Assembly (NCBI GenBank): GCA_023256355.1
Contig: JAGDXJ010000008.1
Location: 1-44,007, forward strand
DNA from: Nitrososphaerales archaeon
GTDB taxonomy: Archaea > Thermoproteota > Nitrososphaeria > Conexivisphaerales > UBA164
DNA length: 44,007 nucleotides
Direction: 5' to 3'
Made by a program: the position numbers and the translations under genes. Positions within the stretch are counted from its first letter, which is position 1. The number at the start of each line of letters is the position of its first letter. The notes below the pieces were generated by a model. That model was not told the origin of the DNA, searched no databases, and was given only the letters and a program-made list of their open reading frames with translations. Below, one piece after another: positions 36,978 through 41,887 of this stretch.

Positions 36978-39599
36978 ATGATAAAATACGCTGAAAGACA
37001 TTCTCAGGAAGAAGCCGAAAAGATACTTGATCCTATAGTCCTTGAATGGTTCAAAAGCAAATATAAAAAGTTCAGTCCACCACAGATCGATGCAATATAT
37101 CATATTCATCATAAAGAAAATGTCCTGGTGTCTTCACCAACAGGTACCGGCAAAACGTTTGCCGCTTTCTTGGACATAATCAGTCAGCTCATACAGCTTT
37201 ATAAAAACGGAAATAATGATAAAGGTATTAAAGTTATTTATGTTTCCCCTTTAAAAGCTCTGATAAACGATATCAAGAAAAACCTTCTTGTGCCCCTGGA
37301 AGAGATGAAATCAGGTCCTGAAAGAGATTGGCTCTCGCAAATAAATGTTGGCATAAGGACAAGCGACACCACAAGCTCTGAAAAGGCAAAACAGCTGATC
37401 AAGCCTCCTGCAATTCTTTGTACAACGCCCGAAAGCCTAGCCATAGCTGTAACAGCCCCGAAGTTCAAAGAAAACCTCAGGACTGTAAAATGGGTTATAG
37501 TCGATGAAATTCATGCCCTTGCAGAATCAAAAAGAGGTTCCTATCTTTCGTTAACGCTTGAGCTTCTGCAGGAGCTTGCTGAATTTCAGAGAATAGGGTT
37601 GAGCGCAACTACTGCGCCCATAGAAGAGATAGCTAAGTTTCTTGCTGGAAGTAACAGGGATGTTACGATTATCGATGCAAGGTTTGAAAAGAAAACGATG
37701 ATAGAGGTCCTTTCGCCTGTTAAGGACATAGTCGGAGTCAGCGAAACGAAGCTAACAGAATCAACCTATTCATTGCTGTACGGCCTTTTAAAGAAGAGCA
37801 AGACTGCCCTTATATTTACAAATACCAGGAGCGGCACAGAAAGGGTTGTTGCGAACCTGAAGAAAAAGTTTCCTGACATTTTCACAGATGAAACAATAGG
37901 GGCACATCACAGCTCGGTGAGCAGGGACCTGAGGCTGGATTTTGAAGACAAGCTCAAGAATGGGCAGCTTAAAGCCATAGTGAGTTCAACATCCCTTGAG
38001 CTCGGGATTGACATAGGATATATCGACCTTGTAATCCAGCTTGGGAGCCCTAAGAGCATAATCAGGCTTCTCCAGAGGGTCGGCAGGTCTGGACACAGCA
38101 TAAACAGCATTTCAAAGGGGGTTATAATTGCCAGCGATAATGACGATATAGTTGAAACGTCCGTAATGGCGTACTACGCTTTAAAAAGGGAGCTTGATAA
38201 AATAAAGATAATAAAGAACGCCCTTGATGTCCTTTCGCAGACTATAGTTTCCATGTCGTTGATAAAAAGGTGGAACGTTTCTGAAGCTTACAGCGTAATA
38301 AAGAGAAGTTACAGTTATGAAAGCTTAGAATGGAACGATTTTATAGATGTCATAAATTACTTGGCTGGCGCTTATCACAGCCTTGAAGAAAGGGGGGTTT
38401 ATTCAAAGATCTCGCTCTATAAGAACGGAGAAAAGGTTGAAAGCTTAAGCTATGAGGATCGAGAAGCAGAGTTTGGAAGAAAGAAATCTGCGAGAATGAT
38501 ATTTTACCTTAATCAGGGAACGATACCAGATGAAACAAAGATAGTTGTTTTTGAAGGAAAAAGGCCAATAGGAACTCTAGAAGAAGAGTTTGTTGAACGT
38601 TTAGGCCCCGGCGACAGGTTTGTTCTTGCCGGAAAAATATATGAATTTATGAGCTCTAAAAGGATGAGGGTATACGTAAAGAAAGCTGATGACTCAAAGC
38701 CAACTGTGCCGGCCTGGTTTTCGGAAGAGTTACCGCTAAGCTATGATCTGGCTAACAAGATACAGGCTTTCAGGGCTTCTCTGCTGGGGCTTCAAAAGTA
38801 CGAAGTGCTTGATAAAATAAGAAATTATCCTGCAGACGAAAATGCAAAAAATGCAATAGCTGAATACATGACGCTTATGACAGGCTTTCTAAAAAGCAGA
38901 AAGCTAGAAAAGCTAGATCAAAAAGACTATCTTGTTGAGCAGTACAAAACAGATAAGTTCAACCTTGTATTTCATACTCTGTTAGGAAGGAAAGCTAACG
39001 ATGCGCTTTCAAGAGCTTTTGGATACATGCTTTCCGAAATGGTAGGCTCATCAGTAGGGGTGATGGTATCTGACAATGGCTTTGTGCTTTCGGTTGATAA
39101 CGATGTTAAAGTAAACGTCAAAAAATTGCTAAAAAGCGTGAGCTCTGAAAACATAGAACAAATTCTTCATAAAGCTGTAAGTAACACGGAGCTTTTCAGG
39201 AGAAAGTTCAGACAGGTAGCCGCTAGGAGCTTCATGATACTTAGAAACTACAAGGGACATTCGATAAGCGTTGGAAAACAGCAGTTTAATTCTGACCTTC
39301 TTGTAAAAGTTGTTCAGAAAGTTGAAGGATTCCCCCTTTTAAAGGAAACATACAGGGAAATCCTGCAGGACTATATGGACATTTCAGCTGCAAAGGAGTT
39401 CCTGAAAAAGTTGGAATCCGGGGAACACAGATTTTTGGTTCTTGAAAAGTCAAACGTTCCTTCTCCGTTTTCTTTCAAGATGCTGGCATGGGGGTCTTCG
39501 GACGTAATACTCATGGAGGACAGAAGAAAGCTTATACTAAAACTGCATCAAAAGTTATTACAGTTTTTAAAGAATAAGAAAAAGGATGCAGATATTTAA
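36978..39599 (+). CDS. lhr: Lhr-type superfamily 2 helicase (Lhr-core)
   Basis: 873 residues; DNA/RNA helicase of the Lhr family, implicated in archaeal repair and replication-restart. Motifs: Q-like FSPPQIDAI, Walker A SPTGTGKT (53-60), VSPLKALINDI, the box VDEIHALAESKRGSYL (about 176-191), GLSATTAP (motif III), TNTRSGTER, SSTSLELGIDIGYIDLVIQLG and LQRVGRSGH (motif VI, about 370). After the two RecA domains come a winged-helix region and the Lhr-specific beta domain with the C-terminal helical DUF-like part (about 500-873), the size of Lhr-core proteins. The coding region overlaps the metallophosphoesterase gene by 14 bases, a pairing recurrent in archaea and bacteria. Confidence 0.93.
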   Translation: MIKYAERHSQEEAEKILDPIVLEWFKSKYKKFSPPQIDAIYHIHHKENVLVSSPTGTGKTFAAFLDIISQLIQLYKNGNNDKGIKVIYVSPLKALINDIKKNLLVPLEEMKSGPERDWLSQINVGIRTSDTTSSEKAKQLIKPPAILCTTPESLAIAVTAPKFKENLRTVKWVIVDEIHALAESKRGSYLSLTLELLQELAEFQRIGLSATTAPIEEIAKFLAGSNRDVTIIDARFEKKTMIEVLSPVKDIVGVSETKLTESTYSLLYGLLKKSKTALIFTNTRSGTERVVANLKKKFPDIFTDETIGAHHSSVSRDLRLDFEDKLKNGQLKAIVSSTSLELGIDIGYIDLVIQLGSPKSIIRLLQRVGRSGHSINSISKGVIIASDNDDIVETSVMAYYALKRELDKIKIIKNALDVLSQTIVSMSLIKRWNVSEAYSVIKRSYSYESLEWNDFIDVINYLAGAYHSLEERGVYSKISLYKNGEKVESLSYEDREAEFGRKKSARMIFYLNQGTIPDETKIVVFEGKRPIGTLEEEFVERLGPGDRFVLAGKIYEFMSSKRMRVYVKKADDSKPTVPAWFSEELPLSYDLANKIQAFRASLLGLQKYEVLDKIRNYPADENAKNAIAEYMTLMTGFLKSRKLEKLDQKDYLVEQYKTDKFNLVFHTLLGRKANDALSRAFGYMLSEMVGSSVGVMVSDNGFVLSVDNDVKVNVKKLLKSVSSENIEQILHKAVSNTELFRRKFRQVAARSFMILRNYKGHSISVGKQQFNSDLLVKVVQKVEGFPLLKETYREILQDYMDISAAKEFLKKLESGEHRFLVLEKSNVPSPFSFKMLAWGSSDVILMEDRRKLILKLHQKLLQFLKNKKKDADI

Positions 39600-40344
39600 G
39601 GGCGTAAAGACTGTTGACGGAAGGAGGGCAGTTTACTTTGAAGAACTTGACCTTGTAGCAATTTCTGATCTGCAGCTTGGTGAAGAAACATATCTGGCTG
39701 AAGAAGCAAAGCTTTACCTGCCCCAGGTACAGCTAAGCATCATACTCGAAGAAATAAGATTCATAAAAGATGTAACAAAAGCTAAAAGAATACTTATAAA
39801 CGGAGATCTAAAGCACGAGTTTAAAACGGCAACTTATCAAGAATGGAATGAGGTTAAAAAGCTTAGCGAGGAGCTAAAAAAGCTCTTCTCTGAAATAATA
39901 ATAATAAGAGGAAATCACGATAACTTTCTCCTTACAATTTCAAACAAGATAGGGCTTAATGTGATCGAAGAGTACAGAGAGAAAGGTTATCTGTTCCTTC
40001 ACGGGCACAGGCTTCCTGATGATTATAATGGCGTGCAAACTGTTGTAATAGGACACGAACAGCCAGCAGTAGTCTTAAGGAGCGGGTATGACAGAGTTAA
40101 GGTACACGTAATACTGTATGGCAAGGATAAATTAGGACATAAGTTCATATGTCTTCCAGCTTTTTCTCCTATAGCTTCGGGAGTTGAAGTAAACATAACA
40201 CCAAAGGAGGAGCTGCTCTCGCCTTTCTTTCATTCAACAGTAGACATAGATGAACTCAAAGCTATTGCTGTAGATCCAAGTGCAGGAGCTTTTAGGCTGC
40301 CAAAGGTCAAGCTGCTCAGGAGCTTTTTAACAGAAAATGTATGA
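39586..40344 (+). CDS. Lhr-associated metallophosphoesterase
   Basis: 252 residues of the calcineurin-like fold. Motifs: VAISDLQLGEE (about 24-34), LINGDLKHEF (about 70-79), IRGNHD (about 107-112), FLHGH and VVIGHEQP (about 148). Catalytic metal ligands Asp28, Asp74, Asn110-His111 and late His are present, but the canonical DxH of motif I is DLQ, so Gln30 replaces His. This is the PdeM-like protein commonly paired with Lhr; the enzyme may be a phosphodiesterase acting on nucleic acid ends, unproven here. Overlaps the Lhr gene by 14 bases. Confidence 0.85.
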   Translation: MQIFKGVKTVDGRRAVYFEELDLVAISDLQLGEETYLAEEAKLYLPQVQLSIILEEIRFIKDVTKAKRILINGDLKHEFKTATYQEWNEVKKLSEELKKLFSEIIIIRGNHDNFLLTISNKIGLNVIEEYREKGYLFLHGHRLPDDYNGVQTVVIGHEQPAVVLRSGYDRVKVHVILYGKDKLGHKFICLPAFSPIASGVEVNITPKEELLSPFFHSTVDIDELKAIAVDPSAGAFRLPKVKLLRSFLTENV

Positions 40345-40392: not shown

Positions 40393-41262
40393 GTGCTTAA
40401 AGGAAAGATTATCAGTATAATAAGTGCTGAACACGAAGAGGCTGAAAGCTTCGCTGAAAGCCTTGGAAAGAAGAAGGAAGAGGGTAAGTTTTACAAGAAA
40501 TCAGGCGAAGAGCTCATAAGCGTGCTCGTACCTAAAGCGGACGAAATTTTTTCTTTAGCTGAAGCTGTTTCTATTTCAGACTATTTTTGCTTTCTAAATA
40601 GAGAAGTTAACAAAAACGAAGCTGAGATGGCTCTTTTGCTTGAAAGCTCAAACAAAGACGGTTGTGTTGTATCTCAGGATGATGACACCTTTAAAAAATA
40701 TTTTGCGACGTTTAACATTATCAATAAACTTTCTGATAAAAAAGTTCAGGAGGATAGAGTCCAATACACGAAGGACTTAGGTTTTGCTTTCATAGATAGT
40801 GCATTTATAGTAAAAGGCGTTGGCCCGGTAATTCTAGGTTTTTCTTTTTCTAACTTTAAGGTCCATCAGAAGATAAGGCTTTTACCATCTTTAAAGGAAG
40901 CTGAAATAAAATCTATACAGGTTCTCGATGAAGATTATGAAGACGTTGGGCCAGGTATAAGGTTCGGGTTCGCTCTAAAAGGTATAGAAGAAAAGGATCT
41001 AAAAGCTTCTTATGCAGCTGTAACCGAGGGCGTTGGCTCGCTCAGCTCAAAGTTAAAAGTGCACAGGCTCAGCATAGCTCAGGAGGCGCAGAGCCTGCAT
41101 GCGTTTTTATATGGAATGAAGATTTTTGGGGAACTTAAAAACGATACGCTTGTACTATCAAACGAGGTACCGTTCGTAAGCGGTAAAGCTATACTTTTGA
41201 ACGTAAACGCACAGCCGAACAAGCTCAGGGTTTATGGCTGGGGTGAACCGGTACCAAGCTGA
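40393..41262 (+). CDS. EF-Tu domain-2-like protein with a degenerate G domain
   Basis: 289 residues. Residues about 135-220 look like the beta-barrel domain 2 of EF-Tu/SelB: LGFAFIDSAFIVKGVGPVIL, KVHQKIRLLPSLKEAEIKS, EDVGPGIRFGFALKGIEEKDL. The N-terminal 130 residues sit where the GTPase domain should be but have no GxxxxGK[ST], DxxG or NKxD; ISIISAEHEEAESFAESL fills the P-loop place. The C-terminal 60 residues (LSNEVPFVSGKAILLNVN) may form domain 3. A GTPase-free relative of archaeal SelB-like factors is the best description. GTG start at 40393; overlaps endonuclease V by 29 bases. Function unknown. Confidence 0.75.
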   Translation: MLKGKIISIISAEHEEAESFAESLGKKKEEGKFYKKSGEELISVLVPKADEIFSLAEAVSISDYFCFLNREVNKNEAEMALLLESSNKDGCVVSQDDDTFKKYFATFNIINKLSDKKVQEDRVQYTKDLGFAFIDSAFIVKGVGPVILGFSFSNFKVHQKIRLLPSLKEAEIKSIQVLDEDYEDVGPGIRFGFALKGIEEKDLKASYAAVTEGVGSLSSKLKVHRLSIAQEAQSLHAFLYGMKIFGELKNDTLVLSNEVPFVSGKAILLNVNAQPNKLRVYGWGEPVPS

Positions 41263-41887
41263 ATGGTTCTTGATAGCTCTGGATTTGAACAAAGCAGCAT
41301 ACGCACAGGATCTTTTGTCCAAGAAGCTTAAGCTTGAGAGTGAAGCTGAAGAATATTCGGTTGTTGGCGGGTTTGATGCTTCTTATTATAATGATATTGC
41401 AGCTGGATGTTACTTTGCAACGATTTGCTGTTCGGATAAAAGGATTAGTTTTGAATTTTCAGTTGTAAAAGGTATCCCCCCTTATATCCCGGGTTTTTTC
41501 TACCTAAGGGAATCAAAGGTATTTTTTAAAACTGTAAAAGAAAAGCCTGACCTTATCTTTGTTAATGCTCATGGCATCATACACCCACGAGGTTTTGGTT
41601 TTGCTTCACATGTTGGAACGGTGCTTAATATCCCCAGCGTAGGGGTTGCAAACAAGCTTCTAAAGGGCTTTATAGAAAAAGATGATAAAGTATTCTTTAA
41701 AGAAAGACATGTCGGTTGGAGAGTTAATTTAAAAGGCAAAAAATTTTACGTGAGTCCAGGTAACTATATAAGCATCGATGATTCTTTGAAAGTTTTTATA
41801 AAAAACGCATCAGAAAACGGTTTGCCGTGGCCTCTTTACTACGCAGATAGATGTTCTAGGGAACTTTTAACAAAAACAAGAAAATAA
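41234..41887 (+). CDS. nfi: Endonuclease V
   Basis: Cuts DNA near deaminated bases (hypoxanthine). 217 residues. Motifs: VGGFDASYYN (Asp48), PPYIPGFFYLRES (about 82-94, Glu93, the YxPGF wedge) and VNAHGIIHPRGFGFASHVG (about 110-128), then VGVANKLLKG and YVSPGNYIS. The Asp48 and Glu93 metal ligands are kept, but the canonical DGHG reads NAHG, so Asn111 replaces the second catalytic Asp (position 110 of the Thermotoga enzyme). ATG at 41234 chosen; GTG at 41243 is an alternative. Completes a Lhr-MPE-EF-Tu-like-EndoV operon. Confidence 0.88.
   Translation: MAGVNRYQAEWFLIALDLNKAAYAQDLLSKKLKLESEAEEYSVVGGFDASYYNDIAAGCYFATICCSDKRISFEFSVVKGIPPYIPGFFYLRESKVFFKTVKEKPDLIFVNAHGIIHPRGFGFASHVGTVLNIPSVGVANKLLKGFIEKDDKVFFKERHVGWRVNLKGKKFYVSPGNYISIDDSLKVFIKNASENGLPWPLYYADRCSRELLTKTRK

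Follow-up and report, generated by a model that had tools for sequence, protein, structure and literature searches.

The locus and its product

The window, that is, the whole stretch of DNA analysed here, comprises 44,007 nucleotides of contig JAGDXJ010000008.1 from a Nitrososphaerales archaeon of the Conexivisphaerales, an order that the NCBI taxonomy places in the class Conexivisphaeria of the Nitrososphaerota; the families (f-numbers) and class referred to below follow the genome collection's own kinship scheme. An intact open reading frame on its forward strand (positions 40393 to 41262, GTG start) encodes a protein of 289 amino acids which is assigned here to the archaeal SelB-like family aSelBL, or aEF-X, and whose first residue coincides in alignment with the first residue of the proteins of two genus relatives. 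Among close relatives, protein identity to the window aSelBL amounts to 84% for L006 and 76% for L007. On the same strand, and separated by short gaps, lie an Lhr-type helicase gene (36978 to 39599) and a gene for a calcineurin-like phosphoesterase of the SbcD_rel_arch type (39586 to 40344), both recognized by Pfam and NCBIfam, and downstream a Pfam-recognized endonuclease V gene (41234 to 41887). As listed, the latter frame overlaps that of aSelBL by 29 bases; since the endonuclease V of two genus relatives matches only from residue 13 onwards, translation may in fact begin at TTG 41270.

The preliminary description had regarded a location beside repair genes as odd for a translation factor, and as a description of the window this holds. 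The four-gene arrangement recurs in two genus relatives (L068, and L069 as far as its contig reaches), and such conservation might be taken to indicate that aSelBL works in DNA repair together with the helicase, the phosphoesterase and endonuclease V. None of the three was found near aSelBL at E 1e-4 in any of 13 further loci, however, 5 of these being represented by stretches shorter than 9 kb. Owing to this confinement to one genus the neighbourhood says little on function and looks like a local arrangement, and a repair role, which we consider highly improbable, was rejected.

Domain 2 is the most readily recognized part of the protein (approximately residues 132 to 208; 40786 to 41016). 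GTP_EFTU_D2 is the sole Pfam domain matched (E 5.5e-4), at 20.7 bits against a cut-off of 30.3, while the comparison with SelB models that the preliminary description had called for gave an NCBIfam selB match at residues 132 to 206 (E 2e-9) of 36.7 bits, below the cut-off of 242.25 that marks a selenocysteine-specific SelB. The NCBIfam EF-1 alpha models match weakly, at most over residues 54 to 205, and a phmmer search of the PDB returned MM1309 of Methanosarcina mazei (3wnb) as its top entry at E 4e-8. These sub-threshold profile matches, combined with the PDB match, point to a genuine yet divergent domain 2 and bear out the EF-Tu/SelB-like character first attributed to the protein. Two elements were added to that first picture, namely a domain 3 (approximately residues 209 to 289; 41017 to 41259), into which the profile match to 3wnb runs as far as profile position 269, and a degenerate G domain in residues 1 to 125 (40393 to 40767, boundary approximate). 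The frame stops after domain 3, and the C-terminal extension involved in SECIS recognition is absent. A structure prediction made from an alignment of just the window protein, L006 and L007 reached a mean pLDDT of 33.8 and a pTM of 0.30, and the model was discarded. Viral contigs were scanned for further relatives and none were found.

Family membership and the state of the G domain

A profile built from 22 relatives matched MM1309 (3wnb) in the PDB at 5.2e-46 over profile positions 6 to 269 of 311, that is, from the degenerate domain 1 into domain 3, and archaeal SelB (4ac9) at 5.2e-29. When the profile was restricted to the first domain (residues 1 to 125 and their equivalents, 22 rows), MM1309 was the sole significant entry at 5.5e-18, the next entry standing at 0.16. 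The corresponding profile of the window's own clade (nine rows) yielded no significant match in the PDB, so the first-domain link to MM1309 runs via intermediates. This link was probed with a 13-row profile lacking the window's clade (f1 and f3 rows) and consisting of f7/f10 rows plus three f2/f11 rows, with which the window N-domain scored 29.7 bits as compared to 7.6 for the best of 1800 shuffled sequences. The other eight clade members scored between 1.9 and 37.5 bits, the lowest (L012) falling below the best shuffle, so that 8 of the 9 members exceeded it. With a profile of f7/f10 rows only, three members, the window among them at 15.9 bits, exceeded the best shuffle of 10.7, and six fell below it. 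On the strength of the 22-row match and of the cross-scoring against shuffles, residues 1 to 125 are best read as a decaying G domain and not as a novel domain.

MM1309 is the structurally solved representative of the aSelBL family, which was described by Atkinson et al. (2011; PMC3037878) and named aEF-X by Yanagisawa (2015; PMC4329189); disruption of the G domain in 'divergent' members has been published (PMC3037878). The window protein agrees with the 'divergent' subgroup in being SelB-derived, in its disrupted G domain, in the absence of a C-terminal extension, and in the presence of a pocket Asp and Arg and of a Phe/Tyr lid. Homology to aSelB and MM1309 extends across domains 1, 2 and 3 in the profile alignments, the G domain is shortened and its motifs are degenerate, the pocket residues Asp191 and Arg247 correspond to D135 and R190, and the lid, at positions 67 and/or 68 of the alignment, is represented by F33 and Y34, which align with the F51 region of aSelB. 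The pocket His192 is replaced by Ser136; this residue is dispensable for membership, as members lacking it are counted as aSelBL in PMC3037878. The gene is thus to be placed, by alignment, among the aSelBLs of the 'divergent' kind, and what was seen in the window is accounted for by a family already described. It differs from that subgroup in that the Conexivisphaerales are not named in the portion of PMC3037878 available to us, in its Ser at position 192 and in its replaced switch I KGT. Literature searches for work since 2015 on archaeal SelB-like proteins, Cys-tRNA and elongation factors, and for Conexivisphaer combined with SelB, returned nothing, with subscription journals thinly covered.

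The preliminary description had noted the absence of the P-loop, DxxG and NKxD, and alignment with MM1309 confirmed that none of them is recognizable; the motifs of an active translational GTPase (P-loop GxxxxGK[ST], DxPGH and NKxD), as read from the alignments, are lacking. In MM1309 the residues at the phosphates are K11, S12, G13, R14, T15 and S16 (PMC4329189). In alignments read by hand, in which the loops are uncertain, these fall on H14, E15, E16, A17, E18 and S19 of the window protein, within a stretch (residues 11 to 19, SAEHEEAES; 40423 to 40449) that aligns with GTEKSGRTS of MM1309 and is poorly kept among nine close relatives. D46 of MM1309 falls on V46, and its G4 stretch, which includes the G4 Asp, falls in a four-column gap, the alternative by eye being that SQDD of the window (residues 94 to 97) aligns with TRSD of MM1309. 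Two genus relatives carry Arg or Lys at position 15, where the window has Glu, and relatives from the order share little of the loop, so that its acidic, Glu-rich character is a trait of the window protein and not of the family. The switch I remnant (residues 25 to 36; 40465 to 40500) has lost the KGT sequence, as in the other rows lacking His192, and retains K26, present in 50 of 50 rows. Across 22 rows the first domain shows a mean column identity of 40% and two invariant columns.

In sequence alignment no intact nucleotide pocket of divergent sequence was found in the window protein, which we infer not to bind GTP. It could nevertheless be imagined that nucleotide is still bound in a re-made pocket, making this an unconventional GTPase, a possibility left standing in PMC3037878; MM1309 itself binds GTP despite several altered motifs (PMC4329189), and the loop is unshortened in the window's clade as compared to the f7/f10 rows, where it is shortened. 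Against this, just one Ser remains of the side chains that line the phosphate site of MM1309, three contact positions are occupied by Glu, the equivalent of D46 is Val and the loop varies among the nine close relatives, and we regard such an activity as unlikely. By profile alignment the window protein and MM1309/aEF-X (PDB 2ELF, 3WNB-D; PMC4329189) share the same domain order. Part of the P-loop and the G4 Asp survive in MM1309, which binds GTP, whereas neither is recognizable in the window protein. Relative to archaeal SelB (4AC9) the D191 and R247 of the domain 2 pocket are kept, whereas the C-terminal domain and the G1 to G4 motifs are missing and H192 has become Ser; EF1A shares domains 2 and 3 but has an intact G domain, which the window protein does not.

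The aminoacyl-tRNA pocket and the two types of aSelBL

The pocket was located by hand count on an alignment in which D205, H206 and R261 of the 4ac9 chain correspond, after an offset of 14, to D191, H192 and R247 of the aSelB of M. maripaludis. In the window the first two positions are occupied by D135 and S136 (40795 to 40800) and the third by R190 (40960 to 40962). Among the 50 aligned rows, 47 of which differ from one another, the Asp is present in 49 and the Arg in all, and Phe or Tyr stands at the lid positions 33 and/or 34 in 49. The position of His192 is variable (H in 23 rows, R in 18, S in 5, K in 3 and Q in 1). Absence of His192 has been reported for Sulfolobales and M. acidiphilum (PMC3037878). 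The replacement of this residue by Ser136 means that specificity may have changed.

A maximum-likelihood tree of the 50 rows, its columns including that of His192, is divided into two sides by a branch with support of 100/99. The window's side comprises f1, f2 and f3 of its own order, f11 of its own class, and f29, f32, f20 and f22 of the phylum, of which f29 may be Sulfolobaceae; f7 and f10, which likewise belong to the window's class, lie on the opposite side with f12, f14 and f34. The pocket His is missing from all 27 rows of the window's side and present in all 23 rows of the other, the exception to this clean split being an f7 row from outside the 50-row set, L036, which has Gln. Within the tree f1 and f3 do not form a single clade (3 changes). 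It was also observed that one class holds two well separated types of aSelBL, of which the f7/f10 type has His192, while the window's type lacks it and groups with other phylum families. This separation within a class suggests, as judged from the tree, a transfer or an old duplication.

The split bears on whether the branch lacking His192 has acquired a changed ligand, which might be another aminoacyl-tRNA, an uncharged tRNA or rRNA, as in a ribosomal stress or storage factor. Such a change would fit with the 27 of 50 non-His residues at position 136 lying on one side of the 100/99 branch, in a tree built with that column, and with neighbouring genes that differ by branch. The retention of the pocket Asp and Arg and of the Phe/Tyr lid argues instead for a similar kind of aminoacyl ligand, and we view a changed ligand as possible but doubtful.

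Distribution within the Conexivisphaerales may be patchy, in line with the disjunct distribution published for aSelBL. In G011 and G015, which are 99 and 95% complete, the only match lies in a longer, EF1A-sized frame, in a search with a single-sequence query that can miss distant members. Frames of approximately 430 to 490 amino acids that match over domain 2 are also carried by relatives and were taken as EF1A by size only, and the window's genome contains four other domain-2 matches.

Proposed function and gene neighbourhoods

According to PMC4329189, MM1309 binds GTP with a Kd of 0.43 uM and shields Cys-tRNACys from hydrolysis, the half-life being about 300 min as compared to 80 min. Atkinson et al. 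(PMC3037878) proposed that, once the aminoacyl-tRNA partner had changed, the GTPase cycle became uncoupled and the G domain was free to decay; the window protein, as aligned, agrees with the most advanced stage of such a process. By analogy with MM1309 we favour, at a probability of roughly 0.55, nucleotide-independent binding and protection of an aminoacyl-tRNA, with Cys-tRNA as the best candidate and the G domain as a scaffold. Under this reading a translational GTPase ancestor of the SelB/EF1A type would have kept its G domain as a scaffold while losing the nucleotide-binding motifs, and would have retained domains 2 and 3, the aminoacyl-tRNA side. The aminoacyl-tRNA would be held in the SelB-type pocket without use of GTP, its ester bond and side chain being shielded, and the tRNA would then be handed on passively or delivered via a GTP-free route. 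The initial suggestion that tRNA may be bound without GTP is in keeping with what has been published on the family, and the conserved pocket residues fit it; the accompanying idea of a partner to another GTPase found no support in this analysis, the protein having a degenerate G domain of its own.

The Cys-tRNA reading draws on the rest of the window's genome, where CysRS is over the cut-off (C65:18382-19743, 497.5 bits) and where neither SepRS (best 59.3 as compared to a cut-off of 380.65 bits) nor a true SelB (best 113 as compared to 242.25 bits) is, both absences being provisional owing to an assembly that is 82% complete. Several points weigh against the favoured explanation: the biochemistry comes from one 'conservative', GTP-binding member, MM1309; Ser stands at the position of His192; the Glu-rich loop is not family-wide; and aSelBL does not adjoin CysRS in the window's own genus. 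Binding of tRNA, specificity for cysteine and a guardian role would be attributes that we infer, next to the family membership, motif loss and kept pocket residues read directly from the alignments. A more tentative extension is that the elongation-factor branch which the Conexivisphaerales share with further families of the phylum might be a wholly nucleotide-free aminoacyl-tRNA carrier with a G domain that is mere scaffold; delivery or storage of a specific aminoacyl-tRNA would then proceed with no GTP switch. aSelBL, widespread, patchy and with a damaged GTPase, is a puzzle of archaeal translation for which we found one tRNA assay in the literature, on the GTP-binding member, and the window protein, its nucleotide contacts seemingly lost, would be a clean subject for the study of GTP-free aminoacyl-tRNA carriage by an elongation-factor body.

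Gene context was compared in 42 neighbourhoods chosen for the presence of aSelBL, mostly one per genus and mostly of about 20 kb (4.2 kb for L092, about 13 kb for L068 and the window slice). An open reading frame of the CysRS family, identified by profile for some loci and by blastp cluster for the rest, lies near aSelBL in 10 loci from three families, the largest number of loci among clusters found in at least two families. Its distance from aSelBL ranges from 1.9 to 12.9 kb, and in 6 of the 10 loci it is on the opposite strand. MetRS was found near aSelBL in 6 of the 42 loci and a LysRS-like gene in 4 (names assigned by eye), so the context is not cysteine-specific. Of the 12 loci from family f7, 6 have MetRS and an AdoHcyase-like gene close to aSelBL and 6 have an NMNAT-like gene there, these names likewise being assigned by eye. 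MetRS was reported before as an aSelBL neighbour in Thaumarchaeota (PMC3037878). The neighbourhoods lend mild support to a link with sulfur amino-acid tRNAs. As a separate argument the CysRS neighbourhood was downgraded, 8 of the 10 loci coming from a single family, while the 19 loci that represent other families of the phylum contributed none.

A HerA-like ATPase gene, recognized by eye, occurs no more than 7 kb away from aSelBL in L107, L115, L100, L102 and L105; with five families represented it is the broadest recurrent neighbour by family. A further recurring set comprises a truncated CysRS paralogue (386 to 406 amino acids) and a GNAT acetyltransferase, at L101:6256-9293 (G010) and L104:16689-19599 (G014), where a glutaredoxin-like protein (Pfam match below cut-off) is added, and in part at L093:1010-2871 (G048) and L124:17213-19064 (G078), the membership of L124 being by blastp cluster only. 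For the three paralogues tested the mycothiol ligase MshC ranked second or third among the curated families, without reaching its cut-off, and the acetyltransferase matched mycothiol synthase MshD weakly (E 0.007) in two of three tested. Judged by these matches, the set could be a mycothiol-type low-molecular-weight thiol pathway in these archaea; a literature search combining mycothiol, MshC and Thaumarchaeota returned nothing. In G010, G014, G048 and G078 the truncated paralogue lies 1.9 to 7.2 kb from aSelBL; in G031 the distance is about 20 kb, and in other genomes such as G006, G009 and G016 the two are on separate contigs.
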